From Pseudomonas sp. FP1742 (lineage in GTDB: Bacteria > Pseudomonadota > Gammaproteobacteria > Pseudomonadales > Pseudomonadaceae), in NCBI RefSeq assembly GCF_030687145.1, contig NZ_CP117460.1, forward strand, positions 186,001 to 250,000: a stretch of 64,000 nt of DNA. Direction: 5' to 3'. Within the stretch, counting starts at the first letter, position 1, and each line of letters opens with the position of its first letter. The notes under the pieces are model-generated. The model saw only the letters and a program-made list of their open reading frames with translations, had not been told where the DNA came from and ran no database searches. Made by a program: the position numbers and the translations under genes. This document shows, piece by piece, positions 37,849-53,625 of the stretch.

Positions 37849-37862
37849 AGTGCAAACGCACT

Positions 37863-37897: not shown

Positions 37898-37912
37898 AAG
37901 CTGGGCACTTTT

Positions 37913-37975
37913 CCGCTAACACGATGACGCGGGTTTCCGACCCCGTGTAACTACAAAGCTTGCAGGGTCCCCGGC
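37913..37975 (-). repeat. 63-bp GNPR repeat, copy c
   Basis: Read on the minus strand: GCCGGGGACCCTG...ACACGGGGTCGGAAACCCGCG...CGTGTTAGCGG. It lies just after the end of the 203-aa gene and just before the GGTGAAC iterons. Confidence 0.75.
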
Positions 37976-37977
37976 AC

Positions 37978-38589: not shown

Positions 38590-38710
38590 TGTTGATCACT
38601 CTTCTCTTGGTTTTGGACAAGCCGCCACACCGGCAAATGTCCGGTGGCAGCGGAAACTTCCACCGGCCCAGCTAACGTCACTCATCCATAAAACGCATGA
38701 GGGGACCGCC

Positions 38711-39064: not shown

Positions 39065-39066
39065 CG
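39040..39066 (+). repeat. iteron array A (GGTGTWACA, 9-bp tandem)
   Basis: GGTGTTACA, GGTGTTTCA and GGTGTAACG follow one another without gaps. Related single copies lie at 39102-39111 (inverted ctgttacaca) and 39156-39165 (gcgtgttaca), around an AT-rich stretch at 39067-39100. The same 9-bp unit recurs, inverted, at 52173-52199. Probable replication-control region of the P4-like satellite. Confidence 0.75.
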
Positions 39067-39665
39067 AATTTTATTAACCTATTGAATTTAATAGATTTAA
39101 CTGCTGTTACACATTGGTCGTGCTTCACTGGAGCCGGCGTGTTGCAGACCTGATGCGTGTTACAGAAAAATCGAGCAATTGGGGACAGGCGTGGGCTGTA
39201 ATCAGCGAGTAGCGAGCGCTCGAACCAGGTTCGTACCCACCTTAAAACATCCATTCTGACGGTTGCCCTGCTACAACGATTATTTTGAGGCTCCTTTCCT
39301 GACGGATCGCTCGCTTCACACCGTACCGTGTGCCAGCGGCTAAAAATGGCAGATGCCGCTACTCAGTTATGCCCGATTTTCAGAGGACATTGAGAATGAC
39401 GAGGAGCAAAATCTCCATTTGACGTGTTAGATTTGGCTATCAACAGCGGGCTTTTATGTCATCATGTAAAGACTGCGAGAGAAGGTATGGTGTTGTGTTT
39501 TAGTGATTGGTTAACTAGTTTCGAAACGCTCATGCTCCTAAGTCGCTTTCATAAGATTTTTGTTACGGGTTTTTGTATGGAAGGTAGATAATAAATAATC
39601 ATAGTAGTGGGGGTGCGAACCTTTGCTTGTTAAAAATTTTCAGTAGAGTTTGGTAATATTTTGAG
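39067..39665. other. AT-rich non-coding interval before the cargo module
   Basis: About 600 bases with no gene. It contains the AT-rich part and outlying iterons of array A up to 39165, and a perfect inverted repeat CGAACC-A-GGTTCG near 39220. The last 150 bases before the methyltransferase gene are AT-rich and probably carry its promoter, but no clear -35/-10 pair stands out. Confidence 0.5.
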
Positions 39666-40976
39666 ATGAAAGAGGCTCATTTAACGCGCTGCCAAGTTGA
39701 AACGCCACCTGACATTGTTCGCTTGGTTTGGTCGTTAGTTTCAAAACAGCGACCTGGTCAAGTCTTTAACTCTGTATTGGATCTTGGCGCTGGTGATGGC
39801 CGCTTTAGCCATGTGGATGGGGCTTATAGAGAATATACAGGTGTTGAACGGGATGTGGCGAAAGTCTCTCAAGCCAAGCTTCCTCCCGGAGCTCAGCTAG
39901 TAGTAGCCGACGCCTTGCAATGGAAAGGATCGGATTACGAGATTTGCGTTGGAAATCCGCCTTATATTCGTCATCACGGTCTTGAGACTGTCTGGCGTGA
40001 CTCGGCTTTGGAAAGTATTCGAACTGCTGGTGGCCCTGCGCTGAAGAAGACCGCAAACGCGTTCATTATTTTTTTAACTCAAGCGCTTATGCGCACAAAA
40101 GATGATGGAGTTGTTGCTCAAGTAGTTCCTTATGAGTGGGTGACTCGGCCGAGTGCTAGCGAACTTCGGGCGTTTATCGAGGGTAAAGGCTGGAATGTAT
40201 ATGTATATCGCTTCGATTCGAATATTTTTCCCACCGTGCTTACTACGGCGTCTATAACCATAATTGATAAAAGATCCAGCGACGGCGATTGGAAATTTGG
40301 GGTTATTAACCGGTCTGGTTCGATAAAGTTGGCGAATCATGCCTCCGGAACCCGCTCCAAGGTCCTCTCATATTCCGATGGATCTGACACTTGTAAAGCC
40401 ATTCGAGGCCTGAGTCCGGGTGGGCAGGAGCTTTTCGTATTGACCGAAGAGGAGCGGCTATTCCACTCGCTCAAGAGGGGGAGGGATGTTCGCCCTTGTG
40501 TTACGTCTCTTCGATCCGTCAGCCAAGATATGGAGCTACTTGATAAAGATAGCTTTGAGCGAATCTTCGTGCGCACAGGATCTCGTTGTTGGTTGATCAG
40601 AAGCGACGAAGAGAAACTTTCGCCTGAGCTAACGCGCTACCTTTCTGGCATCAATGAGCCTGCTTGGGCCAGATACAGTACCTGTACGGCTCGTAAAATT
40701 TGGTGGAGGTATCGGGCTCACCCGGCTCCCGCGTTGCTGGTAGCGTCGGGTTTTACTCAGAAGCGCCCCAAAGTGCTAGTGAATGAGGTGGGGGCAGTGG
40801 CGGTCGGGTCCGTATACGGCGTTCTGATTGACGAAACTCTGAATCTGGCCCGAATGATGTTCGATAAGCTGCGAGACTATGATTTCCACAGGCGATTAGT
40901 GCATCATTCCAACGGCCTCAAAAAGATTGAGGTCCGTCAATTGAACGCCGTTTTGGCCGACCTGCTTCCGGCTTGA
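39666..40976 (+). CDS. N6-adenine DNA methyltransferase-like protein
   Basis: The product has 436 residues. AdoMet motif I VLDLGAGDGRF (about residue 40) and the catalytic NPPYIRHHG motif (about residue 97) give a gamma-class, M.TaqI-like order. The C-terminal 200 residues are probably a target-recognition domain (RKIWWRYRAHPAPALLVASGF). No nuclease domain is fused. First gene of a four-gene plus-strand module with 28-, 22- and 5-bp gaps and lower GC than the chromosome. It may mark self DNA for the module or act as a sensor-coupled modifier. Confidence 0.78.
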   Translation: MKEAHLTRCQVETPPDIVRLVWSLVSKQRPGQVFNSVLDLGAGDGRFSHVDGAYREYTGVERDVAKVSQAKLPPGAQLVVADALQWKGSDYEICVGNPPYIRHHGLETVWRDSALESIRTAGGPALKKTANAFIIFLTQALMRTKDDGVVAQVVPYEWVTRPSASELRAFIEGKGWNVYVYRFDSNIFPTVLTTASITIIDKRSSDGDWKFGVINRSGSIKLANHASGTRSKVLSYSDGSDTCKAIRGLSPGGQELFVLTEEERLFHSLKRGRDVRPCVTSLRSVSQDMELLDKDSFERIFVRTGSRCWLIRSDEEKLSPELTRYLSGINEPAWARYSTCTARKIWWRYRAHPAPALLVASGFTQKRPKVLVNEVGAVAVGSVYGVLIDETLNLARMMFDKLRDYDFHRRLVHHSNGLKKIEVRQLNAVLADLLPA

Positions 40977-41004
40977 AGCATTGAAAAATTTTGAGCGCGA
41001 TCAT

Positions 41005-43350
41005 ATGGCTAAGGATGACCAGAAAGACGTCAAGTTTGCGCAGTTCCACATTAGCGCGGCCTTGTTCGAAGAGCTTGGCGAACGGTTGGTCAGCAAGCCT
41101 GAGATCGCGCTCGCTGAGTTGATCAAGAATAGCTATGACGCTGACGCAATTTCCTGCACGGTGCAGATCGCTAATGATCAGATCGTCGTTAGTGATGACG
41201 GCCACGGGCTGACCGAAAAAGAGTTTCTCGAAAACTGGATGGTCGTCAGTAGCACCAATAAAGCCAAGCGTAGGAACTCGCGCAAATTTCAGCGCCACAT
41301 GGCCGGGTCCAAGGGCGTGGGTCGATTTTCTGCTCGTTTTTTGGGTACCGTGCTCGTGGTGGAGACCACTGCACTTGACCCCAGTACCGGCAAACTCAGG
41401 ACGTTGAAAGCTACGTTCGATTGGCTTGAGATATCCAAAAAGAATGATGTCGCGGATATTCAAATTGAATACACGGTAGTGCCCGCCGCAAAAGGCGTAT
41501 CTACAGGAACGACGCTATCGATTCGTTCCCTCCGTGAGAATGTTTCTGACTTGCCTGTGACCAAAGTACGTACCGATGTGCTTCGATTGGTCAAAGCTGA
41601 CGGTGGCCTTGAGCAGCCGGACTTCGGCAGTAGCCCGCCTGGCACTGAAGAGGACCCCGGTTTCCGTGTTGTATTCCCCCAGGGTGCATCAAATGATGCG
41701 CAGCAGGAAGATTTGGCCGAATCCATCCTTGGTCGGTATGTCGCACGTGCACGCGTAAGTGTTGATGAAAAAGGCGTGGTTGATTTTCGGATTTACTGGA
41801 AAGGTTTGGCCAAGCCTGTGGAGAAGCGCACTCTGCACCTAGATCGTCTGGCCAAACCTTATTCGTCAAAAGCTCTATCGGCCCACGCCGGCGATAAAGA
41901 CCCCCGGGGCTTGCCTGAGGATCTTGCAGGCGTTGATTACCTGCCCCTCGCTAACACCCTTAATAGTCCAGTTTTTTTGGACCTTCGATTCTTCCCGAGC
42001 CGCCAAGGTACATTTACCGGTCTCTCGGTCAATGGCAAAAAGGCCATGGCATGGGTCAAGCAGAACTCTGGCGTTGCCGTGGTGGACAATGGTTTCGCGA
42101 TGCCGGCTTATGCCGATGAAAACAGTGACTGGCTCGCAATTGAAGCATCCAAGGCTTCGAACGAACGCAACTGGCAGTCTATTTTCACACCATCAATTTA
42201 TCCGATGGACCCTACAGCAAAGCGCAGTCCTGCACTGAACCCTATGCTAGCGCTGCCTCGGATGTCGCAGTTAATAGGCCGCGTCCATGTGGCGACGCGT
42301 AAGGTGCCCGCAGGCAATCAGGAAGACGATAATTGGCTGCAGCCCAACATGGACCGCGAGCAGCTCAGGGATAATGGCGCATTTCGACTGTTGTGGCATC
42401 TGGTCAGGTTCACTGTAGAGGCGCTGGCACACTTTGACCGGTCTTTTCGTCTGAAGGACGATGAAGACAGAGACGAAGAGGCCCGGCAGAACGCGCGGTC
42501 AGGGCTTGCCTCTGCCATTGCTCAGATCAGTTCGTCTCCCGAGATCAACGTCGAGCACAAGCAGGCCATGTTGCGGCAGCTTCAGGAGGTGGAGCAGCAG
42601 TTCTCGATCGCTGAGGAGCATGACAAGAGCGTTCGGATGTCTCTTGAACTCATGTCAATGATGGGGGTAATGGCCGGCTTCATGACCCATGAGTTCGACA
42701 AGACACTCGAGAGTATCCACAACGTAGGTAGCATCCTGCAGCGGTTGGCAGTTGATCATCCTGAACTCGCCGATGATGCCGCGTTGGTACTGAAGAACGA
42801 AGTTGCTCTTGCCCAACAGGCAGAGTACATGCGGCTGTATGTTGGGGCTTCCCGCAACATAACAGTGACTCCGTTCAAGGCGAAATCCCAGTTGAATGTC
42901 GCGATTAGAACCTTGACAGCCTTGGCGGAGGAGCACGATATCGATATTGAGATCGATGTCGACGCAAGGCTACCTGGGCCTGCCGTGCCATTGGCTGCTT
43001 ACCATGGCGTTGCTATCAATCTTATCTCCAACGCGATGAAGGCCCTCGTGGCCAGAGTTAACAGCAGTAATCGAAAAATCAAGGTTTACGCGGTCAATGA
43101 TGAGACCAAGCACGTCCTGGTCTGCGCTGACAACGGTATTGGCATTCCAGAGTATCTCCAGGGTCGAATCTGGGACCCACTCTTCACCACGACGGAGAAC
43201 CTAGACGAGAGGAACCCATTAAATTCGGGACTGGGCTTGGGGCTTGCGGTAGTGAAGCGCGTCGTTGATGGCGTTGGCGGGAAGGTTGAACTTATGAAGA
43301 AGTCGCCTCCAGGGTTTGTGACGGCGTTCAGGGTTTCGTTTCCAGTTTAA
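41005..43350 (+). CDS. double GHKL protein: HSP90/MORC-like ATPase fused to histidine kinase core
   Basis: The product has 781 residues from ATG 41005. The N-terminal ATPase has an N-box ELIKNSYDADA (residues 38-48), DDGHGL (64-69) and GSKGVGRFSA (from 101), as in HSP90/MutL/MORC-type ATPases. A middle domain follows, then a coiled-coil with FMTHEF (His near residue 562, the likely H-box), and a second GHKL domain with NLISNAMKAL (about 671), DNGIGI (about 709) and GLGLGLAVV (about 742). No membrane segment. The next gene encodes a receiver domain, the natural phosphorylation partner. The fusion of two GHKL ATPases is unusual. Confidence 0.8.
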   Translation: MAKDDQKDVKFAQFHISAALFEELGERLVSKPEIALAELIKNSYDADAISCTVQIANDQIVVSDDGHGLTEKEFLENWMVVSSTNKAKRRNSRKFQRHMAGSKGVGRFSARFLGTVLVVETTALDPSTGKLRTLKATFDWLEISKKNDVADIQIEYTVVPAAKGVSTGTTLSIRSLRENVSDLPVTKVRTDVLRLVKADGGLEQPDFGSSPPGTEEDPGFRVVFPQGASNDAQQEDLAESILGRYVARARVSVDEKGVVDFRIYWKGLAKPVEKRTLHLDRLAKPYSSKALSAHAGDKDPRGLPEDLAGVDYLPLANTLNSPVFLDLRFFPSRQGTFTGLSVNGKKAMAWVKQNSGVAVVDNGFAMPAYADENSDWLAIEASKASNERNWQSIFTPSIYPMDPTAKRSPALNPMLALPRMSQLIGRVHVATRKVPAGNQEDDNWLQPNMDREQLRDNGAFRLLWHLVRFTVEALAHFDRSFRLKDDEDRDEEARQNARSGLASAIAQISSSPEINVEHKQAMLRQLQEVEQQFSIAEEHDKSVRMSLELMSMMGVMAGFMTHEFDKTLESIHNVGSILQRLAVDHPELADDAALVLKNEVALAQQAEYMRLYVGASRNITVTPFKAKSQLNVAIRTLTALAEEHDIDIEIDVDARLPGPAVPLAAYHGVAINLISNAMKALVARVNSSNRKIKVYAVNDETKHVLVCADNGIGIPEYLQGRIWDPLFTTTENLDERNPLNSGLGLGLAVVKRVVDGVGGKVELMKKSPPGFVTAFRVSFPV

Positions 43351-43372
43351 ATAAAGATTGATAGGGGGCGCT

Positions 43373-44464
43373 GTGTGTAAGGTACTGATCATTGAAGACC
43401 AACTGGAAACGATCGAGAAATTCAAGGCTTTGGCGGCAGGTACGGGGCTTACCTTTCTGGCTCCCTCCGAGGTGGGGCTCACCGAGCTAGATACCGAAGA
43501 GGGTGAGTCCGTCGAAGAGCAACTCGCAAAGTACCTAAAAGAAAAGATTGCTGAGCACGACATTGATTTGGTTCTGCTTGATACAGATCTCTCGCGTGGG
43601 CGTTCGTTGCAGACCCATTCTAGTTACAAAGCGGCCTTGCGAGAGCTTGGGATGCCAGTGTGCAGGTATCAGAAAGGAGGCAGCGCAACTCAACTGGCAC
43701 AATTGCCTCAGCTGCAACGAACCATCCGAGATGGAGCGTCAGCGATCTGGATCCCGAAGGCTCTTGTGAGTGGGGACCGCATTAACGAGCTTGTTCCTCG
43801 CTTGATTGCTCTCAGCAAAGGGTTCAAAGACATCCTCAGCGCGCTCAATGCACAGCCGGAGTTGTTGGCGAGTGCACACAGCCCTAATGATGTTATGGCT
43901 ACAGTGCTCGGCGATCCAGAAATTTCCTATGAGTTTCTGGGATATGCCGCGCAGAATCTTGTCTATTTTGCCAAGCCAGAGGCTGATGTCGAAGATCATC
44001 AGATCTCAAAAGTACGACGCTATGCCACGCAGCTGGGCTACTGGTTGTTCAATTACATTATTACTTTCCCTGGGCCGATCCTGCGGGATGATGCCGCAGC
44101 GGCTTACATCAACGTCCACCCAGACGAGCTCTCCGCGCAGGCTGAGCTACTAAAGACGATGGAGCCTGCTCAGTATCACGGACCTTTTGACAAGGTCGAG
44201 CGTTACTACTGGCGATCCCGACTGATCGAGCTACTGGAAGCGACTGGTGGAGATATCGGAAAGCATGAAATTTTAACCGGTAAATCACTTCGCCGCGTTG
44301 ATCCTGAAAATATGGGCGCGCCAACTTATGTTTGTATGATTTCCGGCGAGCCAATTACGCTGGACCAAGCTGCTGTGAACCCTGACTGGGTCCCCTCCGG
44401 CGCAAGCGAGGCGAAGATCAAAGAAGACGTCTTGGACGAGCTTGGGCCGTTGGCAGGGATCTGA
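43373..44464 (+). CDS. receiver-domain protein with uncharacterised C-terminal domain
   Basis: The product has 363 residues from GTG 43373 (AGGGGG 4 bases upstream). The N-terminal 130 residues look like a response-regulator receiver: KVLIIEDQ (acidic pair), a long insertion, then LVLLDTDLS with phospho-acceptor Asp70, and a C-terminal Lys (IWIPKAL). The remaining 230 residues are not a DNA-binding domain I recognise and may be the effector. Pairs with the upstream kinase-like protein. Confidence 0.65.
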   Translation: MCKVLIIEDQLETIEKFKALAAGTGLTFLAPSEVGLTELDTEEGESVEEQLAKYLKEKIAEHDIDLVLLDTDLSRGRSLQTHSSYKAALRELGMPVCRYQKGGSATQLAQLPQLQRTIRDGASAIWIPKALVSGDRINELVPRLIALSKGFKDILSALNAQPELLASAHSPNDVMATVLGDPEISYEFLGYAAQNLVYFAKPEADVEDHQISKVRRYATQLGYWLFNYIITFPGPILRDDAAAAYINVHPDELSAQAELLKTMEPAQYHGPFDKVERYYWRSRLIELLEATGGDIGKHEILTGKSLRRVDPENMGAPTYVCMISGEPITLDQAAVNPDWVPSGASEAKIKEDVLDELGPLAGI

Positions 44465-44469
44465 ATATC

Positions 44470-45234
44470 ATGGAAGAGCTCGCATTGTTCAAACGGCATG
44501 TGCATGAAATCCACAATGCCGCCGGCATCGTGATCGCCAAACAGCAGCTTACAAAGGCGGTATGGCCCGATCTCATAACGAGCGACGCTGGAGATGAAGG
44601 TATAAAGTTGGAGTTTTCTCAGCCAGCGATCATTTGGAATGCTCCCCTTAGAGCGTCCTCAAGTGCTTTGGCCAAGCGCGCGATCGTGATGGATGGCTGC
44701 TTTTATTTCAAAGATGGTACTTTTGACAAAGGAGGTGCATCTCTTGAAGTCTACAGCGCGTCCCGCTCTTCAGAGGGGTACAAGCTCGAGCTCCTTGAAG
44801 CGATGCACTTCGACATCGAACCTCATGCTCAGCAGTCTCCATTTCATCCAATGTTTCATGTCCAGTTCGGAAAAAACCACCGCTGGGATCTTGGTGCGCT
44901 CCAAGGTCGAGTTGCCGAACTAACAAGACTAGATGTTTCAAAGGTTGCGATAAATAGGGATATGGACATGCCTACCCGAGACGTTCGCATACCGACTCCT
45001 CAGATGGATTATCTATCGATGCTAGTGATGGTTGTCGCGGATTATTTCTGCGAGAAAAACAGCACTCACGAGGTAAAGTCTGGGTTCAAAAGACTTCTGC
45101 AGAAGGTCATGGACTCAAGGAACGAAGCACGAGTTGGAAGGCAGTCGATTCGTTTGGAGCAACGCTGGGCGAATGCCGGGCAAAACACCCCTCCTTTCTC
45201 CGCCGCCCATTGGTATCAAGAGAGCTGTAGGTAA
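44470..45234 (+). CDS. unknown protein, fourth gene of the methyltransferase-GHKL module
   Basis: The product has 254 residues and no recognised family. A mixed alpha/beta N-terminal half (IIWNAPLRASSSALAKRAIVMDGCFYFKDG) is followed by RWDLGALQGRVAELTRLDVSKVAINRDMDMPTRDVRIP and a helical end. It starts 5 bases after the receiver-domain gene, so it is certainly in the same operon. It is conceivably the effector or an adaptor; I see no nuclease motif. Confidence 0.6.
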   Translation: MEELALFKRHVHEIHNAAGIVIAKQQLTKAVWPDLITSDAGDEGIKLEFSQPAIIWNAPLRASSSALAKRAIVMDGCFYFKDGTFDKGGASLEVYSASRSSEGYKLELLEAMHFDIEPHAQQSPFHPMFHVQFGKNHRWDLGALQGRVAELTRLDVSKVAINRDMDMPTRDVRIPTPQMDYLSMLVMVVADYFCEKNSTHEVKSGFKRLLQKVMDSRNEARVGRQSIRLEQRWANAGQNTPPFSAAHWYQESCR

Positions 45235-45434
45235 CTACGGCATTCATTGTCTGACTGGGTCAGTAACCTGCATCCGAGTTGCAGAGACGATAACGAAGTC
45301 AAAGCAAGGATTAAACTCCCCTTCATTTGGATGGGCCCGCTATTGAACTTCTAGCTGCCCCTGTGACGTGCGTTGATCGGCATCCAGTCCTTGCACGGCG
45401 TCGGTGCGGAAGCTTGGCGGGCTTCCGCTTGGCG

Positions 45435-45623
45435 TTATATTCGCTTTTTTAACTTATTTTCTATAAGCCCTATTTCTGCCTCGATTGCATTGATGGTGAA
45501 CTTTTGCATCGCTGTGCTTTTTCCGTTTTTGGTATCCACGATCTTGAGCAGGGCGGTCAGGTGAGCTTTTCTCGATTTAAGCGTTTCGGATATGGATGAG
45601 CTGTTTTGTGTCGCTGCGTTCAT
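45435..45623 (-). CDS. small hypothetical protein, 62 aa
   Basis: MNAATQNSSSISETLKSRKA begins a Lys/Glu-rich helical protein ending IGLIENKLKKRI. Follows the coiled-coil gene on the minus strand, separated by a hairpin. AGGAT lies upstream of ATG 45623. Function unknown. Confidence 0.5.
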   Translation of the reverse strand: MNAATQNSSSISETLKSRKAHLTALLKIVDTKNGKSTAMQKFTINAIEAEIGLIENKLKKRI

Positions 45624-45646
45624 GGCTTCGATCCTTGGAGTGATTT

Positions 45647-45672
45647 AAACAGCCCGCGAAAGCAGGCTGTTT
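45647..45672 (-). terminator. hairpin, possible attenuator
   Basis: AAACAGCC / GGCTGTTT stem with a 10-base loop between the 280-aa and 62-aa genes. On the minus strand it ends TTTAAAT. Confidence 0.6.
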
Positions 45673-45687
45673 CAGGGGAGTCGGTAG

Positions 45688-46530
45688 TTACATCGAGAGC
45701 AGATCGCGCGTGCAATGCTTGCTCCCACGGTCTGCCAAGTCGCGCCATTTCCAACTGCCAAAGTCTCCACCCTGTTCGGGAATGTCGAGCTTGAGCAACG
45801 ACATTGGGTCGCGGCCGATCAGTCGAGCGGCGGCATAGAGTTTACCCCCTGCATCGAGCAGCGCCTGAGCGGCTTCATTCCACTTTTCTTGTAGGGCGTC
45901 GTGGGCGAGCTGTAAGGCTTTTCGCTCGATTTTCTGGTGTTCCTCCTGAGCCTCGGCGATATGATGGTCGACGGTGGCCAACTCCTGCTCCAGGGCTGTG
46001 ATAATCAGTTGCTGACGGCGATGCTGTTCCGTGGCAGTAGTGAGATTTTTCGCAGCTTTCTGAGCGTCGCTGCTAGCAACTTTTTCGCCTTCTACGTCGC
46101 CCCACGCCACGGCTTGTGCGTAAGCGGTGGCCGCCAGGGTCTCAGCCTGCCGTGCACTCGCTATCTCTTCTTGAGACAGCTTGCGAACTTCCTCCAAGCG
46201 AGTGCTGAGGCTTTCCCGTTTTGCATTGAGTTCGAGCTCATCCGCCACCCAATTTGCCATGTCGGCAATGTAGCCCGCCATCAAGCTTTCTCGATTGGCC
46301 AGCGTCTCTAGGCGATTAAGTTTTTGATCCAACATGTGAATCTCAAGCTTGATTGAATCGATCCTTCGTTTGCGATCGCTGGAGTTGAACTCGACCGCGC
46401 TTTCTTGGCCAGAGTTGATGACGTCTTCGCTGTCAAGCGAAGCCTTAAGGGATGGAAGCACCGTGTTGATGGCTTCCATTTCAATGACCAATTTGGCGCG
46501 AGCGTCTTTCAATTGCTGAATGCTGTTCAT
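45688..46530 (-). CDS. coiled-coil hypothetical protein, 280 aa
   Basis: From ATG 46530. Long heptad-like helices (LDQKLNRLETLANRESLMAGYIADMANW, then a second coil) and a C-terminal basic, Trp-containing segment. I recognise no family. Downstream of the primase gene on the same strand, so probably part of the satellite's early operon. It may be structural or bind DNA. Confidence 0.6.
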   Translation of the reverse strand: MNSIQQLKDARAKLVIEMEAINTVLPSLKASLDSEDVINSGQESAVEFNSSDRKRRIDSIKLEIHMLDQKLNRLETLANRESLMAGYIADMANWVADELELNAKRESLSTRLEEVRKLSQEEIASARQAETLAATAYAQAVAWGDVEGEKVASSDAQKAAKNLTTATEQHRRQQLIITALEQELATVDHHIAEAQEEHQKIERKALQLAHDALQEKWNEAAQALLDAGGKLYAAARLIGRDPMSLLKLDIPEQGGDFGSWKWRDLADRGSKHCTRDLLSM

Positions 46531-46622
46531 GTGTTTGGTCCTGTGCAATATGTATGTGGGTTCAATGAGTGGCTGGCGAGGCCGGAATCGGGCCGGCTCT
46601 ACCTCTGTCAGTAGGCTGGCCA

Positions 46623-49517
46623 CTAGGCGGCCTGTGCCTCGCTCTCATCCGCTACCGGTACGGTCTTCACTACATAGCAACGCTGGGTGCCCATCCCTGG
46701 TAAGCGGACGGAGCAGGAGGCTTTGCCGTTGGGACCCGGCTCAAGGACGCCACGGCGAATCAGCTCCTTGTTCACTGCATTGATGTTCATGCCTTTGAAC
46801 ACTTCGGAGCGCCATGACTCGGGCAGCACGTAGTAGGTGTTGGTGGTGTGCAATGCGTCGCCCAAGCCGTGCTCCAGCGTCTTGCGGAAGCCCAAGCGGT
46901 CGATGGTGCGGGGGCCGTGTTCATCGACCTTCGCGGCCGCCGACTCCCAGCGGGTGAAGCGGCTTTCGCCGAAGCGCTCGATGACTTGGCGCAGCCGTGC
47001 CAGGATCGCATCACCTTCAAGATTTCCGGCGCCCCCGCGTTCGTTGAGCCAGGCGCTGAGGCAAACTCGGGCGGCGGTGGTGGCTGTGCCATCGGGCCAG
47101 CCCGTTATGCCCATTGCGGTGGCCAGCTCGCCGGCAGCTGCAGCCAGACCAAAGCGAGTGGCGGCACGGTGCGCTTGGCCGCTAGCCGAGGCAGGCAGTG
47201 CTTTGGTGATGAACCTCTCCAAGGTGTGGCGCAAGATGGCCGACCAACCGTGCAGCTTGCCTGGTTCACAGAGAGCCGACAGGAGCGCGGTGAGCGGTGT
47301 GCCGTAGTACTTGGCTACCCGTGCCTTGAGTGCATCGGAGAGGGCCGCCGCATCATCAAAACCGTTCAGCACGTCGAACATGCCTAGGCCTTTACTGGCG
47401 TCCGCTGGCACGGCGAGCATGCGCACTTCCATGCCGGCTTTCAGCTCTTTGTTGGCTTCGGCCATGTGCTGCGCCAAGGTCTTCTCTCCGGTCGAGAGAA
47501 ACAGCACGCGCCACTCCTGCACCTGTCGGCCTGCTTGTCCTCGATCATTGGCGCGAGCCTTGCCGGTGCCGTTACCGAGCATGTACACCGTTTCGCCAAT
47601 GATGCGCGGGTCGCACATGCCGATTTCATCCAGCACCAAGAGCCCGTCCGAATGCGCGGCGGCGATGGATTCTAAAGCGTTATCCGTAGAGCGCCAGGAG
47701 CGCACCAGACGCGGCCCGCCGTAGATCGAAGCGGCCACTTGCAGGTGCGTGGTCTTGCCACCTGAGCTGTCGCCATAGAGGTGAAAACCGCCCGACTCGT
47801 GGCCGAGTAGGTGCAGCAGTGGACCGGCAAACGCCACGCTGGCCACAAACGCCAAGCGGTGGTTGCCGATGCACAAGGCTCCGATTTGCTCTTGCCATTG
47901 CTCCAAGGTGCCGGCTTCGCTGATCGGCGGCAGCTGCGCGCCGGCCTCATAAAAGTGCAGGTGTTCGGCGTGTGAACCGACCTGCTGTTCGGGCAGCAAG
48001 AAGGCGCTGTCGTGCCAACCCAAACGGGTGACCAGTCGAGCGCGCTGGGCGCTGTCGAAGCCGCCAAGGTAACTCTGCAGATCGTTGCGGGCATTGCGAC
48101 CTGAGCGACTGCCGGCGAGACGCAAACCCATGTCGACGAGCGGGCCGAGCACGTCCTTGCCGAAGTCTCCGGTCATGGTTCGCGCCGGGATGTTCCAGCG
48201 CTTTTTCGCCCCGTCCGGGTCGTCGAACTCGACCAGCAGACCCCAGTTGTGACCCTGCGCATCTCGGGTGCGCGCTAGGATCTCCAGTGGCGAGCACACT
48301 GGACGTGCCTCGCCATCGTCACCGGAATAAAACACGCCTTCGGGCGTCAGGCGGAAGCCGCCGGGCAACAGATCGTTTTTGGGTTTCGCGGCGCGCTTGG
48401 TCGCCGGCTTAGTCTTGGCTTCGGGTGGTTCGGCCGGTGCTTTCTCCGGCTCGACGCCAAACAATTCACCGCTGCGTTCCAGCTCGGCGACGTGCGCCGC
48501 CGTCCAACCTTTGGCCTGTGCATCGGCTGCGTCGTCGCCGTCATCCCATTGACCACCTTTGGCGAAGGTCGGTTGGTCACTTTTGAAGGTGGGCTTGCGT
48601 TTGAAGACGTCTAGGGCGATCACGCGAACCGACGCGGCGCCGATCTGTTGCAGTTGTTCGGCTACGGCGCTCATGCAGCTTTTGCCGCTGGCGTCGTTGT
48701 CGGGCCACAACACCACTGTCCGACCTATGATCGGTGTGAGGTCGGCTTTGTGCCAGGAGTTCGAGCCATTCGGCCAGCACGTGGCCACGTAGCTGGGCAG
48801 CAGCTCCGCTGCGGCGTCGGCGGCCTTTTCGCCTTCGCACAGAATGACCGGAGCCTCTGTGCGTTGTGTCAGTTCATCCAAGCGCAGCAGAGGACGTGGC
48901 TCAGGCAGACCTTGCCAACGCCATTGCTGCGTTTGACCGTCGGTACGCTGGCACCAGGTCAAGGGGGCAAACACCTTACGCGGTTTGCCGTCTTCGTCCG
49001 GGCTCAAATCGAAGCGATAGAGCGCCATGACCGGCTGGCCTTGAGCGTCGCGGTAAATCCAGATATTGGACGGCGTTCCGTGTTGCCGGTGTTTGGTCGG
49101 GCACTTGTTCATGGCCTCGGCCGGGATCGGCTGGATGGCGAGCCATTCCGGTGTTTTGCTTTTGCTGGGGCTCGGCTTCGATTGGTCCGTCCTTGCGGTA
49201 ATGTGCAGCAGATCTGCCAGCTTGTTGCAGGCTCCGACGTCGGTGCCACCATCCAGATAGCGCACCAGATCGATCAGGTCGCCGCCCTTGTCGCCGGTGG
49301 CAAAATCAGCCCAAGTGCCTTTGCTCAAATTGACCTTGAGGGAGCCGGCCCGCATGTCGGCGCGTGTTGGATTGGGAGCTGTGTATTCCTTGCCGCCGTC
49401 GATGCGTTTGCCGTTCGGTAGCCAGTGAGACAAGACGCGATCAATGTCCTTCAGAGAGGCGGCTTTTACGTCGGCGAAGCTCGGACGTTTCGCAGTGCTG
49501 TTCGGGCGTTGGCTCAT
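46623..49517 (-). CDS. P4-like primase-helicase (TOPRIM + DUF927)
   Basis: The product has 964 residues. The N-terminal region has GSLKVNLSKGTWADFATGDKGGDLIDLVRYL, typical of P4-type primases. A TOPRIM domain follows (PVILCEGEKAADAAAE, about residue 220; VVLWPDNDASG). The C-terminal half is a DUF927 helicase with Walker A YGDSSGGKTT (about residue 580) and Walker B LLVLDEIG. It would unwind and prime the satellite's replication origin, most likely at the GGTGTWACA iterons. Start ATG 49517 overlaps the DUF3077 stop. Confidence 0.88.
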   Translation of the reverse strand: MSQRPNSTAKRPSFADVKAASLKDIDRVLSHWLPNGKRIDGGKEYTAPNPTRADMRAGSLKVNLSKGTWADFATGDKGGDLIDLVRYLDGGTDVGACNKLADLLHITARTDQSKPSPSKSKTPEWLAIQPIPAEAMNKCPTKHRQHGTPSNIWIYRDAQGQPVMALYRFDLSPDEDGKPRKVFAPLTWCQRTDGQTQQWRWQGLPEPRPLLRLDELTQRTEAPVILCEGEKAADAAAELLPSYVATCWPNGSNSWHKADLTPIIGRTVVLWPDNDASGKSCMSAVAEQLQQIGAASVRVIALDVFKRKPTFKSDQPTFAKGGQWDDGDDAADAQAKGWTAAHVAELERSGELFGVEPEKAPAEPPEAKTKPATKRAAKPKNDLLPGGFRLTPEGVFYSGDDGEARPVCSPLEILARTRDAQGHNWGLLVEFDDPDGAKKRWNIPARTMTGDFGKDVLGPLVDMGLRLAGSRSGRNARNDLQSYLGGFDSAQRARLVTRLGWHDSAFLLPEQQVGSHAEHLHFYEAGAQLPPISEAGTLEQWQEQIGALCIGNHRLAFVASVAFAGPLLHLLGHESGGFHLYGDSSGGKTTHLQVAASIYGGPRLVRSWRSTDNALESIAAAHSDGLLVLDEIGMCDPRIIGETVYMLGNGTGKARANDRGQAGRQVQEWRVLFLSTGEKTLAQHMAEANKELKAGMEVRMLAVPADASKGLGMFDVLNGFDDAAALSDALKARVAKYYGTPLTALLSALCEPGKLHGWSAILRHTLERFITKALPASASGQAHRAATRFGLAAAAGELATAMGITGWPDGTATTAARVCLSAWLNERGGAGNLEGDAILARLRQVIERFGESRFTRWESAAAKVDEHGPRTIDRLGFRKTLEHGLGDALHTTNTYYVLPESWRSEVFKGMNINAVNKELIRRGVLEPGPNGKASCSVRLPGMGTQRCYVVKTVPVADESEAQAA

Positions 49518-49786
49518 GCGTTGGCCCTCGGCAGAAACAGCGCGTCATTGATGTCGTCGATCAGGGCTTTGGCCATTTCACCGAGGTACAGGGCTGGCCA
49601 ACTGAAACGCTCGCCTTGGTCGCTCATGGCGGCGTCGAAAGTGAGCTGGTTGGCGTGATGCTGTAGCAGTGACACCATCTCCAAAGCATCCTCTACCGGA
49701 ATGCCGGCATTAACCCGAAACAGCTTCAAATCGGTGGCGTTGACGCGGGAAAAGGTGGCATGGCCCAGTGTGGTTGACGAGGTCAT
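49514..49786 (-). CDS. DUF3077 family protein (satellite 2)
   Basis: The product has 90 residues, with LKLFRVNAGIPVEDALEMVSLLQHHAN...WPALYLGEMAKALIDDIND. Paralogue of the protein at 26023-26316. Overlaps both neighbours by 4 bases in a strictly coupled operon (52 aa, 94 aa, DUF3077, primase). Function unknown. Confidence 0.8.
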   Translation of the reverse strand: MTSSTTLGHATFSRVNATDLKLFRVNAGIPVEDALEMVSLLQHHANQLTFDAAMSDQGERFSWPALYLGEMAKALIDDINDALFLPRANA

Positions 49787-50067
49787 AGCGCACCGCCTTT
49801 CTGCGCCGCAGGAATCGAGGTGATGTCGCCGTGCAAGGCGAGTGTCTTGATCAGGCCGAGGGTGCCGCGCACGTCCCAAAGGACGGCGGCAATGACGTGG
49901 TTGGCAAGACGCGGCGACTCGCTGTCGAAGTGATCTTCAAGTAGTGTCAGCACAGAGTCGGCGCGGTCAATGGCGCAGGTGATGGCGTCGATGGGTACAC
50001 CGGCTTCGGCGGTCGCAGTGACGCACAGCAGATCTTCGGGCAGGGCGAAACTCAGGGGGCTGTTCAT
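49783..50067 (-). CDS. hypothetical protein, 94 aa
   Basis: MNSPLSFALPEDLLCVTATA begins a helical protein whose pattern (AGVPIDAITCAIDRADSVLTLLEDHF) is reminiscent of DUF3077 but too divergent to assign. ATG 50067 overlaps the stop of the 52-aa ORF and its stop overlaps the DUF3077 start. Confidence 0.65.
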   Translation of the reverse strand: MNSPLSFALPEDLLCVTATAEAGVPIDAITCAIDRADSVLTLLEDHFDSESPRLANHVIAAVLWDVRGTLGLIKTLALHGDITSIPAAQKGGAL

Positions 50068-50222
50068 TGGGCACCGCCTGCGGTTTCGAGTTCGCGGGCT
50101 TTGGCCATGTGTGCGTTGTAGCGGCTGAGGCGTGTTGTGAGACTGGAGTTGGCGTGTAAAGCGGCGAGAGCCATTGCACGGTGTGCAGCGGCGCGAATTT
50201 TGGACGGATTGAGGGTGTGCAT
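50064..50222 (-). CDS. small leader ORF, 52 aa (satellite 2)
   Basis: ATG 50222 with AAGGAG 9 bases upstream; MHTLNPSKIRAAAHRAMALA and so on, basic and helical. It aligns at its start with the 42-aa ORF at 26428. The ribosome site is inside the seqC segment that can pair with the CI-like RNA. First gene of the satellite's early operon. Function unknown. Confidence 0.6.
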   Translation of the reverse strand: MHTLNPSKIRAAAHRAMALAALHANSSLTTRLSRYNAHMAKARELETAGGAQ

Positions 50223-50231
50223 AGGTGGAGC

Positions 50232-50240
50232 TCCTTCTTA
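50232..50240 (-). promoter_or_regulatory. seqC-like target of the CI-like RNA, satellite 2
   Basis: Minus strand TAAGAAGGA is exactly complementary to TCCTTCTTA of the seqB loop (50310-50319) and contains part of the Shine-Dalgarno. A second complementary segment, seqA (TTAAGAAGG, 50416-50424), lies upstream in the transcript. Confidence 0.7.
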
Positions 50241-50280
50241 AGTAGGAACTGCCACGATTCGTCGCCAAACGAATTGGGGT

Positions 50281-50355
50281 GGCAGCTGTGCGCAGGTTGG
50301 CGAACCGGGTAAGAAGGAACCCGGCAGACCCGAAGGTCTCCCACGCACAGCCGCC
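50281..50355 (-). ncRNA. P4 CI-like immunity RNA, copy 2
   Basis: A 75-nt core with the same 16-bp closing stem as copy 1, a hairpin AGACC-UUCG-GGUCU and a CCGGGU/ACCCGG hairpin whose loop UCCUUCUU is seqB. Against copy 1, the UUCG stem changes C-G to G-C and G-C to A-U. SeqB changes completely, yet seqA and seqC change with it. These compensatory differences argue for selection on RNA pairing. It lies just upstream of the replication operon, as cI does in phage P4. Confidence 0.75.
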
Positions 50356-50376
50356 ATAAAGCAGGAATGCGGGCAC

Positions 50377-50408
50377 AAAAAAAGCGCCTGCAATCGAGAT
50401 GGGGGCGC
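50377..50408 (-). terminator. leader terminator, satellite 2
   Basis: Minus strand GCGCCCCCATCTCGATTGCAGGCGC followed by seven T, between seqA and the CI-like RNA. Conserved in copy 1. Confidence 0.72.
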
Positions 50409-50469
50409 CTGTGCGCCTTCTTAAACTCGGGTCGCCAAACCCGGTCGCTGATTTTGCAGCGACGGCCAG

Positions 50470-50498
50470 AGAGTAACGTCCCATTTTCGAAAGTGCAA
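50470..50498 (-). promoter_or_regulatory. leader promoter, satellite 2
   Basis: -35 TTGCAC (50498-50493), 17-base spacer, -10 TACTCT (50475-50470). A GTCGCTG/CAGCGAC hairpin follows. The same spacing and downstream hairpin as copy 1. Confidence 0.62.
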
Positions 50499-50566
50499 CC
50501 GTGTGGATGGCTTGTATATTTTTCAAGCGCGGCATAAATTGTTCGGGCATGTAGATTTACCTCAGC

Positions 50567-50596
50567 GCCTCCGGATCGCCCCCGGAGGCGTTTTCA
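50567..50596. terminator. hairpin downstream of the 101-aa gene
   Basis: GCCTCCGG / CCGGAGGC stem, followed on the plus strand by GTTTTCATTTC. It separates the regulator operon from the leader promoter. Confidence 0.65.
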
Positions 50597-50598
50597 TT

Positions 50599-50904
50599 TC
50601 AGGCATGAACTTCCCAGCGCAGGGAAAGCAGGGGCAGGAAGTCTCCATCGATCATGGAGCGAGCATCTTCGTAGGCGGCCGCTTGCTGGCCTTCGTCGAC
50701 AATCACTGCATTGAATTTTTCGCTATGGATGGCTAGGGCGCACCAGGTTCCATCAGGCCACTTCAACACTCCCACGACGCGATTAAGGCGTTCGTGTTTG
50801 GTCCGGTAGCGCTCGAGGCGTTGCATGTAGGATGCCGATAGACCGATCTCGCGAAGGACTGAGAACGGCTTTAGCTCTGCCTTGTAGGCTATGTGTAGTC
50901 TCAT
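50599..50904 (-). CDS. hypothetical protein, 101 aa
   Basis: From ATG 50904, overlapping the AlpA stop. MRLHIAYKAELKPFSVLREI, then RTKHERLNRVVGVLKWPDGTWCALAIHSEKFNAVIVDEGQQAAAYEDA. No family recognised. Translationally coupled to the alpA-like gene, so perhaps part of the lysogeny/excision control set. Confidence 0.65.
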   Translation of the reverse strand: MRLHIAYKAELKPFSVLREIGLSASYMQRLERYRTKHERLNRVVGVLKWPDGTWCALAIHSEKFNAVIVDEGQQAAAYEDARSMIDGDFLPLLSLRWEVHA

Positions 50905-51254
50905 GCAGCAGCCTTGTCGCGAGCGGCAATACGTGCACGTGTCCAATTCAAGACTTCAGACAAAACCCAAGCAACTGGAGCTCCACGGGCATTGCTATCG
51001 GTAAGTTTTACGGGCTGTGGAAAGCCGCTTTCGGGCTGGCTCATGAGCTTGTAAACGGTGGCTCTGCCAATGCCAGTGATGGACATCACCATGGGAACGC
51101 GGATAAGCGTTGCAGCAGGATCGAAGTGTCCTAGCTCTAGATCGCGCGCCTGCATTGCTGAGGTCAAGGGCAACGCATTTTCTTGCAATGCATTGGCTGA
51201 AGGCAGTGCAGGAGCGAGCTTTAAAAGCTTTTGTGTTTGTTCGACTCTACTCAT
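50901..51254 (-). CDS. AlpA-family phage regulatory protein
   Basis: The product has 117 residues from ATG 51254. The C-terminal half has the AlpA HTH: LIRVPMVMSITGIGRATVYKLMSQPESGFPQPVKLTD...VAWVLSEVLNWTRARI. AlpA-type proteins activate integrase or act as excisionases in P4-like elements. Its start overlaps the stop of the upstream HTH gene (TGATG). Confidence 0.85.
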   Translation of the reverse strand: MSRVEQTQKLLKLAPALPSANALQENALPLTSAMQARDLELGHFDPAATLIRVPMVMSITGIGRATVYKLMSQPESGFPQPVKLTDSNARGAPVAWVLSEVLNWTRARIAARDKAAA

Positions 51255-51535
51255 CAAAGAGGCCCTCGCGCAGCATCGACAGCGGAGCACTTCCGACTTT
51301 CGAGCCATGCAAAAACATCCTCTGAGCGATAACGCACCCGAGAACCGAGTCTGAGGAAAGGCAGTGGGCTACGCCCGGAACAACGCCAGGCAGCGAGGGT
51401 TTTGTTGGAGAGTGCCAGCGCGGCGGCAACTTGGCTTGATGTCATCAAACCAAAAACGGGAGTAGAAATGGCGATATTTTGGAGCGCTGATTTTGCGGTT
51501 GTGTCGCGTTTTGAATCTTGGGCGGTGATAGTCAT
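51254..51535 (-). CDS. helix-turn-helix (MerR/excisionase-like) protein
   Basis: The product has 93 residues from ATG 51535 (AGGGG 7 bases upstream). The central HTH_17-type segment reads LMTSSQVAAALALSNKTLAAWRCSGRSPLPFLRLGSRVRYRSEDVFAWLESR. Such small proteins are excisionases or early-gene regulators. Coupled to the AlpA gene. Confidence 0.8.
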   Translation of the reverse strand: MTITAQDSKRDTTAKSALQNIAISTPVFGLMTSSQVAAALALSNKTLAAWRCSGRSPLPFLRLGSRVRYRSEDVFAWLESRKCSAVDAARGPL

Positions 51536-51679
51536 TGATGGTCCCCTGTGGTTGTGGAAGGTCACAGGGCCATCTATTTATGCGGTTTATTCGATAAAGG
51601 AAACGAGCAATATTTTGTTGTGCTGATCTTATCCACATAACATCTAGTTGGCAGTACGACGCCTACTAGACGCACCAGA

Positions 51680-51973
51680 TCACTCCGACGAACGGTCGTC
51701 ATCATTTGGGGTATCGTTCCAGCCTGGTGGATAGATCATTTTCCAATCGGCGCCTTCGATCCACTGCGCGAGGTCGTGAAGATAAACCACTCGCTGCGTC
51801 CGGCCACCCCAGTCCCCTTTCACTACGCGTAGCGTTATCTTCCCTTCTCGGATTTTGCGTAGAAGTTGTGGCATCCCCAGGTGGCTCGCGTAATGGCGTC
51901 TGACGATATCCAGCGGAATGCACACGCTACCGTATTTCTTTGTTAAGAATTCCAACGTCGGAAAATCAGTCAT
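51680..51973 (-). CDS. PrtN-like (pyocin activator family) regulator
   Basis: The product has 97 residues. FLTKKYGSVCIPLDIVRRHYASHLGMPQLLRKIREGKITLRVV...RVVYLHDLAQWIEGADW fits the PrtN family, whose founding member activates pyocin genes. In islands these are probably activators of element genes. Single gene between the HTH gene and iteron array B. Confidence 0.75.
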   Translation of the reverse strand: MTDFPTLEFLTKKYGSVCIPLDIVRRHYASHLGMPQLLRKIREGKITLRVVKGDWGGRTQRVVYLHDLAQWIEGADWKMIYPPGWNDTPNDDDRSSE

Positions 51974-52072
51974 TCAGGCTCCCCGTGCCCCATTTGGTTG
52001 TGGTTAAGCAGCGCGCATTTTCGGCAATTTCCCAGCGCTGGAGGCGCCAGCAGCATGCGATTGGCTCTGGTC

Positions 52073-52199
52073 ATGTGTTACACCCTTTCGTCCTGTTACA
52101 CCAATCTCCAGCATTAAGTTGAATGCGTGTTACGCAGGATAAATCCATATAAATCAATAAGATGATGCAATCTGTAACACGTGACACACCTGTTACACC
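52073..52199 (-). repeat. iteron array B (GGTGTWACA type)
   Basis: On the minus strand a tight 9-bp tandem GGTGTAACA, GGTGTGTCA, CGTGTTACA occupies 52199-52173. Further units lie at about 52128 and as ggtgtaacagg/ggtgtaacaca around 52076-52103, with an AT-rich stretch between. It faces array A at 39040 across the element, like the ori/crr pair of P4. Confidence 0.72.
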
Positions 52200-52222
52200 G
52201 ATATTTCGAGGGTGGCAAACTC

Positions 52223-53458
52223 TTAGACAGCCTTTCCAAACTGGCCCTGAACAATGTTGCCTTGCACCAATTCATCAAGGTGGTCGGCGTACCATTGCAT
52301 CATGACTTTACGCTGCGGCAGGTACACGGCCTTGTTATATACACCTGCAATTCCCTCTTTTACGTGGGAGAGTTGAGCCTCAATGTGGTTCTCGTCGAAT
52401 CCCTGTTCATTCAGGATCGTGCTAGCGATGTGACGGAAACCATGACCAGTTTGCCTGCCTGCATATCCCAGCCTACGCAACGCCATCAGAAATACGGTAT
52501 TGCTACGAGGTATGGTGCGATCTTTTCTTCCAGGAAATAGGAGAGGGTAGGCCCCTGTGAGTGTGCGCAGTTCCGTTATCGCTTCAATGGCCTGGCGAGA
52601 TAGAGGCACTACGTGCTCGCGACGACGCTTCATTCGCTCGGCTGGAATTGTCCAAAGCTTTTTGTTGAGGTCGATTTCTGACCAGCGTGCTTCTCGAATC
52701 TCGCTCGGGCGCGCCGCTAATAAAGCAAGCAAGCGGAGCCCTAGACGAACATCCTTTGCGTGAGGGTAAGAGTTAATCGCCCGGAGCAATGCTGGCAGCT
52801 CTTCTATCGACACGTGCGCATAGTTTTCAGCGCTACGCGTCTGTAGGAATTTATTGAGGCCTTCAAGGGGATTGTGTATGGCTCGGCCTGTCACGCGTGC
52901 CAAGTCGTAGATCTCTTTGCAGAAGGCGCGAACTCTGCCCATTTGCTCGATGATCCCTTTCTGCTCCATGCCGCGCAGAAACTCCATCCATTCAAGGGGC
53001 AGTATTTCTGTGTAGGTGCGTTTGCCGAAAACGGGGAACACATGAAGTTCCAGGGCACCAAGGACTCGACGGGACGTACCGGCTTCCCAGCTTGAGCGCC
53101 TCGCCTCAAACCATTCGCGGCCTAATGCTTCGAATGTGTTGTTGGCAGCCACGCGGTCAGCAATCTTGCGAGCCTGTTTGCTGACTAAAGGATTTTTGCC
53201 AGTCGATGCGTCATCTCGCAGTTGGGCTGCCTTCTGTCTGGCTACTGAGCCACTGATTTCCGGGTAGCCGCCTAGTCCCAGCCAAGACCATTTCCCGTCC
53301 GGCTTTTTGTAGCGCAACTCCCAAGACTTCTGCCCATTGGCTTTGACCCGAAAGTACAGTCCGTTGCCGTCTTGCTCTCGGTAGGTCGCGCTTTCTGGTT
53401 CCAGGCCAGCCAGAGTTGTGTCTGCCAGTGGGCGGCGTTTGATTTCAGTACGCTTCAC
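52223..53458 (-). CDS. tyrosine-type integrase (P4 family)
   Basis: The product has 411 residues. N-terminal DUF4102-type arm-binding domain (GNGLYFRVKANGQKSWELRYKKPDGKWSWLGLGGYPEIS), SAM-like core-binding domain, then a catalytic domain with Arg in ARPSEIREARW, HGFRHIAST, LSH and the Tyr of VYNKAVYL. Starts next to the arm-like repeats and 168 bases from the tRNA-Arg 3' end, the usual place of a tRNA-targeting integrase. Confidence 0.92.
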   Translation of the reverse strand: MKRTEIKRRPLADTTLAGLEPESATYREQDGNGLYFRVKANGQKSWELRYKKPDGKWSWLGLGGYPEISGSVARQKAAQLRDDASTGKNPLVSKQARKIADRVAANNTFEALGREWFEARRSSWEAGTSRRVLGALELHVFPVFGKRTYTEILPLEWMEFLRGMEQKGIIEQMGRVRAFCKEIYDLARVTGRAIHNPLEGLNKFLQTRSAENYAHVSIEELPALLRAINSYPHAKDVRLGLRLLALLAARPSEIREARWSEIDLNKKLWTIPAERMKRRREHVVPLSRQAIEAITELRTLTGAYPLLFPGRKDRTIPRSNTVFLMALRRLGYAGRQTGHGFRHIASTILNEQGFDENHIEAQLSHVKEGIAGVYNKAVYLPQRKVMMQWYADHLDELVQGNIVQGQFGKAV

Positions 53459-53460
53459 TG

Positions 53461-53512
53461 CGTGTATGCCTCCAGTTCAAGGAATCTCAAAGCATACACG
53501 TGGGCATACACG
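53461..53512. other. integrase arm-type sites at the right end of satellite 2
   Basis: The 21-bp repeat at 53492-53512 equals 36659-36679. A single GCATACACG lies on the minus strand at 53461-53469, touching the integrase start. Arrays of short repeats beside int usually bind integrase or excisionase. Confidence 0.65.
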
Positions 53513-53550
53513 GCGTGAAGTTATAGGGGTAGACAGGGATGGATAGCCAG

Positions 53551-53583
53551 AAACAAGAAAGCCCGCACGGGGCGGGCTTCTTG
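53551..53583 (-). terminator. intrinsic terminator after tRNA-Arg
   Basis: Minus strand AAGCCCGC-CCCGT-GCGGGCTT followed by TCTTGTTT, 42 bases beyond the tRNA 3' end. Confidence 0.85.
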
Positions 53584-53625
53584 GGGAGTTTCGTAGACTG
53601 TCTGAGACAGGCCTAGACTGCTATA

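Follow-up and report, generated by a model that had tools for sequence, protein, structure and literature searches.

The C4 and CI RNAs are a textbook case of phage immunity that is based on RNA, and only a few of their specificities are known. Private pairing is also known from Ibs/Sib, multi-copy type I toxin-antitoxin RNAs in which each paralogous gene is silenced by its own antisense RNA. In the phages P1 and P4, superinfection immunity is conferred by C4/CI (PMC5320573, PMC4825925), and the specificities of P1 and P7 are four nucleotides apart (Citron and Schuster 1990, as cited in PMC5320573). The RNA families RF01695 and RF03163 are both listed in Weinberg 2010 (PMC2864571). IsrK, from a single locus of the Salmonella prophage Gifsy-1 that controls a phage operon, has been termed a structural homolog of the P4 SeqA RNA (PMC4825925). 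In Acinetobacter baumannii, 21 Group 1 C4-like RNAs with variable target-binding loops have been described in one genome, and these sRNAs are expressed and apparently processed (PMC5320573).

The CI stretch of phage P4 matches RF01695 with 74.9 bits and isrK with 60.8 bits, with c4-a1b1 at 44.1 bits, below its cut-off of 46.7. The immunity region of phage P1 matches RF01695 with 68.8 bits and c4-a1b1 with 51.0 bits, with isrK at 35.1 bits, below its cut-off of 50. In the GenBank annotation of P1, the order is a1, b1, C4, a2, b2 and icd, and the same element order is present in Pseudomonas sp. FP1742, at the following locus of the window (the whole stretch of 64,000 nucleotides that was analysed):

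50424..50476, minus strand: a1/b1 target leader (RF03163, c4-a1b1), 66.3 bits, cut-off 46.7
50377..50463, minus strand: isrK-type leader RNA (RF01394), 60.0 bits, cut-off 50
about 50431-50442, minus strand: a1, read from the sequence
50416..50424, minus strand: b1 target (seqA) TTAAGAAGG, 8-nt Watson-Crick run with the loop
50275..50361, minus strand: C4 antisense RNA (RF01695), 87.8 bits, cut-off 45
50310..50319, minus strand: b' loop seed (seqB) TTCCTTCTTA, from sequence and fold
50295..50306, minus strand: a' segment GGTTCGCCAACC, read from the sequence, partly unpaired in the fold
50261..50270, minus strand: a2 target GTTTGGCGAC, read from the sequence
50232..50240, minus strand: b2 target (seqC) TAAGAAGGA, 9-nt Watson-Crick run with the loop

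Judged from its sequence, the RNA at 50275-50361 is a known C4/CI-family antisense RNA. It scores above the cut-off, it has the closing stem, the tetraloop hairpin and the b' hairpin, and its a' and b' segments are complementary to segments on both sides. The covariance-model placement is slightly wider than the core of 50281-50355 that the first-pass annotation had delimited. For this core, a 16-bp closing stem that encloses a UUCG hairpin and another hairpin, with TTCCTTCTTA exposed in the latter, had been proposed, and this fold was reproduced on the minus strand with a minimum free energy of -49.4 kcal/mol (z -6.28), equal stability being reached in 0 of 200 shuffles. The three segments seqA, seqB and seqC had been located correctly on the minus strand, and their proposed complementarity holds, as the seqB loop forms a longest Watson-Crick run of 8 nt with the target upstream and of 9 nt with the one downstream. 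The latter target and the likely ribosome-binding site of the following ORF overlap. A second pairing had been overlooked: the a' motif UCGCCAA is complementary over 7 nt to UUGGCGA on each side, with copies at about 50431-50442 and 50261-50270 (minus strand, read from the sequence). When the 34 copies in this genome were aligned, two-sided changes were found in 16 of the 22 predicted pairs, which bears out the covariation on which the annotation had staked its fold, and 13 of 748 cells were non-canonical. In the consensus of these copies, the stem and the tetraloop hairpin covary, the b' hairpin with its hypervariable loop was not recovered, and one extra pair is doubtful.

Other parts of the first-pass annotation fared less well. 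A leader promoter had been called visible, and a sigma-70 scan of 50150-50700 returned no promoter. For the terminator, also called visible, the isrK match ends in a U run just before the RNA, but this stretch is absent from the terminator scan. The analogy with P4 CI stood, since the RNA is built like P4 CI and the same Rfam model covers the P4 CI region and P1 C4, but the novelty of the RNA did not: the claim that no named immunity RNA was known here is contradicted by RF01695 (87.8 bits) and RF03163 (66.3 bits), which cover the locus, and an unnamed immunity RNA is ruled out by these matches.

The window holds a second C4 unit, and both units lie within one tRNA-Arg island, because homology to close relatives breaks at its ends. 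The features of this island are as follows:

25142..53625, no strand: tRNA-Arg island with the two C4 units, from homology breaks against the genomes G183 and G237
52223..53458, minus strand: tyrosine integrase next to tRNA-Arg (PF00589, 7.1e-23)
51680..51973, minus strand: PrtN/excisionase-type gene (PF11112, 4.4e-16; phrog_1300, excisionase)
50901..51308, minus strand: AlpA-type regulator (PF05930, 1.3e-11)
50064..50222, minus strand: 52-aa ORF behind b2, putative coding (open reading frame)
49783..50067, minus strand: 94-aa ORF, starting at MNSPL inside a longer frame (open reading frame)
49514..49786, minus strand: DUF3077 gene, 90 aa, inner start MTSST (PF11275, 6.1e-24)
46623..49517, minus strand: DUF927 gene, primase type, 964 aa (PF06048, 1.2e-81; phrog_1139, DNA primase, 1e-78)
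26624-26676, minus strand: a1/b1 leader of the second C4, 56.9 bits
26476..26563, minus strand: second C4 RNA with another seed (RF01695, 87.3 bits)

Homology to G183 ends at 53625, one base from the tRNA-Arg (53626-53702), and returns at 25141, so that the island measures about 28 kb; homology to G237 returns at 25188, and weaker homology to it is seen in patches as far as 25867 and also at the two C4 units. A search for att repeats near the tRNA-Arg gave no usable result. At the right end of the island, the gene order is integrase, PrtN/excisionase-type gene, AlpA-type regulator, C4 leader, three small ORFs (the third being the DUF3077 gene) and the DUF927 gene, a candidate primase gene in line with the primase-helicase operon that had been placed downstream. 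The 94-aa ORF has no match in Pfam, NCBIfam or PHROGs. A 255-aa open frame at 49783-50550 (minus strand) spans the leader, C4 and b2 into this ORF, and may be due to chance or be a translated leader. The element had been called a satellite, which agrees with the integrase, the AlpA-type and excisionase-type genes and the tRNA insertion, but it is a putative satellite only, and no capsid-remodelling gene was seen among the ORFs scanned. With a tyrosine integrase at a tRNA, an AlpA-type regulator and a C4/CI leader before a replication gene, 'P4-like' is a fair description of the island anatomy as it can be read from the genes.

The second C4 unit adjoins a type I restriction-modification cluster and is followed by a DUF3077-like gene; its product and the DUF3077 protein encoded behind unit C03 share 78% identity in the part that was compared. 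This cluster (M, S, R), followed by a PDC-S18 candidate defence gene, occupies 26744-36510 inside the island. At 39666-45234 there is perhaps a further defence module, made up of an Eco57I-type methylase, a double HATPase protein of 789 aa and two genes that match no family. Elsewhere in the window, a gabT RNA motif (RF01738, 66.5 bits) is present at 55586-55647 (plus strand), between gabD-like and gabT-like genes.

C4 RNAs are numerous in Pseudomonas. The FP1742 genome (6.67 Mb, one contig) contains 34 matches to RF01695, all above the cut-off. Among 40 Pseudomonas genomes, FP1742 included and with up to 82 candidates examined per genome, 36 have a match and 35 have one above the cut-off, with 0-42 matches per genome. 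A match is also present in 275 of 298 Pseudomonas genomes among the matches listed (up to 14 per genome). Under stricter filters, six of 185 genomes of the class have a match besides FP1742, in one to three copies, and in 14 control genomes no match to RF01695 was found. The units share with P1/P7 C4 and P4 CI the covariance model, the three-stem fold, the order of a1/b1, RNA and a2/b2, and the position of b2 at a ribosome-binding site. However, P1/P7 C4 and P4 CI are present as one locus per element, whereas dozens of stand-alone chromosomal units are found per Pseudomonas genome, mostly before DUF6124-type genes and with seeds that differ between syntenic sites. The leader before the FP1742 C4 resembles IsrK (RF01394) in its match of 60 bits, but IsrK is a single prophage locus (PMC4825925). 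In the number of C4-like RNAs per genome and in their variable loops, the Pseudomonas units resemble those of Acinetobacter. Unlike the Pseudomonas findings, the available part of the Acinetobacter paper leaves the targets open and contains no cis-linked a1/b1/a2/b2 sets, no downstream gene family and no seed replacement at syntenic sites (PMC5320573). Multi-copy C4 RNAs are thus already known from Acinetobacter; for switching C4 units of the Pseudomonas type, no description was found in searches of open-licence PMC papers.

Around C4, a repeated block extends from about -205 to +500-680 relative to C4. Clustering of the genes around the 34 copies found no integrase or primase family at three or more loci; because only families reaching this number were listed, an integrase present at a single unit could have been missed. 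Ten units have flanks that resemble host genes, such as Kup, ComM, GspE and LapD types (by reading, not by family search). Behind 22 of the 34 C4 copies there is a gene of the MFKxTPNPP or PDPP type (DUF6124-type), as judged by the start sequence; PF19619 (DUF6124) was matched by all three scanned genes of this type (C04, C07 and C08), and the remaining 19 assignments are by start sequence only. The remaining units precede a DUF3077 gene, a gene for a Bro-N protein, small ORFs or families that Pfam does not name; C26 and C29 have no clear downstream gene. DUF6124 is not confined to chromosomes, although a tblastn search found one phage record and no plasmid. DUF6124 relatives were also found on 43 viral contigs, several near contig ends, and these loci may be host flanks themselves. 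A primase search of the viral contigs gave no pattern match. In an AlphaFold model of the DUF6124-type protein (mean pLDDT 71.3), the N-terminal half is of low confidence, and a two-helix hairpin is confidently predicted behind it. A fold search with this model returned no PDB relative at E <= 0.001, and the scanned examples have no further family match in Pfam or NCBIfam. DUF6124 and DUF3077 were not tied together as one family by hhalign, nor excluded as such (probability 1.2, small alignments).

On average, the C4 RNAs match their own targets far better than those of other units. With fixed windows and the longest Watson-Crick run as the measure, the b' loop reaches on average 7.50 with its own b2 against 4.21 with the b2 of other units in FP1742 (G000, 34 units). 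The corresponding values are 6.67 and 4.20 for the 39 units of G183 and 7.06 and 4.34 for the 32 units of G237, and the observed mean was attained in 0 of 10,000 permutations in each genome. The other targets behave likewise: for b1, the values are 6.62 against 4.24, 6.05 against 4.20 and 6.22 against 4.29, and for a' with a1 they are 6.97 against 4.54, 6.74 against 4.57 and 7.25 against 4.53 (G000, G183 and G237, respectively). The preference for own targets was repeated in G005 (best 30 of 42 matches), in G010 (best 28 of 36 matches) and with 63 of the 80 loci of named strains, with 0 of 5,000 permutations in each case; from these 140 extra loci, 7 without a C4 match and 12 unplaced had been left out before the counts. 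All loops are distinct within G000 (34), G183 (39) and G237 (32), as are 29 of 30 in G005 and 26 of 28 in G010 among the same best matches. The own b2 is strictly the best target in 19 of the 34 units of G000 and jointly the best in 26, and pairing is poor in C19, C29 and C31 (run of 3). The paired segment of b2 lies at a median of -15 to -8 from the start codon, and of the 54 units that have both an ORF and a run of at least 6, 43 show an SD-like 4-mer in or beside the pairing. A b2 run of at least 6 is found in 74 of 105 units; 55 of these 74 share a 5-mer of the run with their own b1, against 16% with the b1 of other units.

A first pairing matrix, which kept the stem bases, was noisy: own b2 exceeded the others (0 of 10,000 permutations) yet ranked first in only 5 of 34 units, and the b1 mean was reached by 112 of 10,000 permutations. 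In a version with hand-cut loops, the a1 locator misplaced the b1 windows of C04, C05, C15, C25 and C26. Avoidance of cross-matching within genomes is not supported, because cross-matches with a run of at least 9 are about as frequent within genomes (5 of 3,596) as between them (18 of 7,252; p 0.28).

The seeds are replaced at syntenic sites. In comparisons among G000, G183 and G237, both flanks are conserved in 36 pairs (15, 10 and 11), and identities were pooled over the 26 pairs in which the CDS is at least 80% identical, leaving out the 10 below 80%. The loop is less than 70% identical ('switched') in 12 of these 26 pairs. The varying parts of the switched pairs are 45% (loop), 65% (b1) and 55% (b2) identical, and the constant parts are 92% (a1), 90% (C4 arms) and 90% (CDS) identical. 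The replaced seeds still fit their own targets: for b2, the own run is 6.71 against 4.50 for the cross-pairing and is higher in 11 of 12 pairs (p 0.0005), and for b1 it is 5.62 against 4.54 and higher in only 7 of 12 (p 0.029), p-values that are generous because pairs share units. One of the 12, A_C22/B_L063, with C4 arms 61-62% identical, may have replaced the whole unit. In A_C12 and B_L069, the replacement can be seen base by base. Among 226 units (G000, G183 and G237 in full, G005 and G010 in part, and named strains), more than one seed class is present at 23 of 37 sites with conserved flanks, although near-alike loops, as at the C33 site, can count as two classes because a seed class is a shared 7-mer. 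At 19 of the 23 multi-seed sites, the downstream gene is similar in at least one pair with different seeds. At some the whole unit differs, as in A_C23/B_L061 (CDS 42%), and a single seed is kept at the sites C15, C25, C27 and C32.

The C12 site was studied closely; it has 11 units with four seed classes, of which nine units were compared. The C4 stems and spacers are 98% identical in same-allele pairs (9) and 82% in different-allele pairs (27), and the CDS is 89.5% and 90.6% identical, respectively. The seed alleles at this site thus track a b1-C4-b2 cassette of about 200 bp, not the downstream gene. L126 and L128 have CDSs that are 97% identical and different seeds, and A_C12 and L128 have CDSs that are 89% identical and cassettes that are 99% identical. 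It follows from these identities that the b1-to-b2 block is replaced as a unit and that its alleles cross strain and species lines. The linkage of seed and cassette holds at this one site, and recombination would be the natural reading of the exchange. Some seeds recur at other sites, namely CCTTGATT, TTTCCAAGTAGC (in A_C20, L144 and L226/L227) and TTATACCT (in L220). The loop of L132 no longer fits its own targets (runs of 5 and 4), and the B_L069 loop fits the L132 b2 with a run of 8; L132 is perhaps a stage of change or of decay.

Neighbouring units are also found in pairs. L226/L227 in G005 and L246/L254 in G010 are about 0.7-0.85 kb apart with one seed per pair, and the b2/start region of one member differs, as if duplication had been followed by loss.

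These results are very probably explained by a C4/CI-family RNA that belongs to the leader of an element with an integrase and by chromosomal units of the same kind that silence themselves and exchange their seeds as cassettes. The sequences themselves show the family and the fold, the cognate pairing and its own-pair specificity, the replacement of seeds at syntenic sites and, at the C12 site, the linkage of seed and cassette; expression, RNase P processing, repression and recombination as the exchange route are what we infer. In the element, pairing of a'/b' with a1/b1 upstream would probably end transcription early, and pairing with a2/b2 downstream would hide the ribosome-binding site. The primase operon would thereby be kept off, and the RNA would repress in trans any incoming element that shares its targets. 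In the chromosome, the module also stands alone, in dozens of copies per genome, and each copy would be kept silent by the C4 and the private seed that it carries, as the anatomy and the known family suggest for a two-site antisense RNA. Seed and targets would be inherited together as a b1-C4-b2 cassette and exchanged between strains, and because the cassette carries both, a site could change its specificity while the leader and the gene stay. On one scaffold, well over a hundred cognate seed-target sets are present, several of them at the same site in sister strains. This opens three questions to direct testing: the evolution of antisense specificity where a change has to involve three sites at once, the role of dozens of such RNAs per cell, and the reason why bacteria retain phage-type immunity RNAs. 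The units also offer a handle on DUF6124 and DUF3077.

As to the force behind the seed turnover, there is only a suggestive link to the seeds of mobile elements. In four of five genomes, a stand-alone unit carries a seed that is common among DUF3077-type viral elements, and this sharing may reflect immunity or shared ancestry. It is possible, and no more than tentatively proposed, that a pool of interchangeable b1-C4-b2 cassettes moves horizontally and is kept diverse by balancing selection as an RNA-coded self/non-self recognition; if so, this pool, spread over dozens of loci, would determine the set of C4-controlled genes and mobile elements that a cell keeps silent.

A chromosomal immune repertoire, in which many C4 RNAs with changing seeds would silence incoming C4-controlled phages and satellites and the downstream gene would be secondary, is rather unlikely as the main explanation, although it has precedent in the superinfection immunity of P1 and P4 described above. 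Nine viral loops of the DUF3077 type find a target of at least 8 nt in 7, 4, 8, 7 and 9 of 9 cases in five genomes, compared with only 21-28% for control loops of other genomes, and with host units of the TPNPP/PDPP type as sole targets they still do so in 6, 2, 7, 6 and 7 of 9. However, these loops are nearly one seed family and close to one observation, because CCTTGA is present in eight of the nine, and the host units that match them are few (A_C05, C_L089, C_L093, L215, L233 and L246, besides some chance matches). With all 29 viral loops (one loop of length 1 dropped), four of the five genomes showed no excess over loops of other Pseudomonas genomes (p 0.33-1), whereas G010 showed one (p 0.005, uncorrected). 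The possible host origin of the DUF6124 loci on viral contigs also speaks against a repertoire.

That the units are toxin modules, with harmful small downstream proteins, C4 as the antitoxin and seed turnover following module duplication, is improbable. The P1 C4 controls icd, annotated as an inhibitor of cell division, and the many paralogs with private RNAs, apparently self-repressed, as well as the tandem same-seed copies with one altered b2/start region (L226/L227 and L246/L254), would suit such modules. Ibs/Sib are similar in having paralogous genes, each with its own silencing antisense RNA, but differ in that their RNA family, structure and proteins are unrelated to the C4 units, for which toxicity is only putative. 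Against toxicity, the DUF6124-type model is a two-helix hairpin without a PDB match at the threshold given above, and the scanned examples match no other Pfam or NCBIfam family.

That the units are neutral remains of old satellites, with drifting seeds and pairing of little importance, agrees with the units without a gene (C26 and C29), the poor fit of some units to their targets and the misfit of L132, but is highly improbable given that replaced seeds still fit their own targets (6.71 against 4.50), that the C4 stems covary and that the CDSs are open and similar at syntenic sites.

On the viral contigs, L286, L287 and their relatives have the same loop with a b2 that is either fully paired (run of 10) or broken (run of 5). 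The break corresponds to a would-be single G-U pair, and is possibly a half-step in a seed change.
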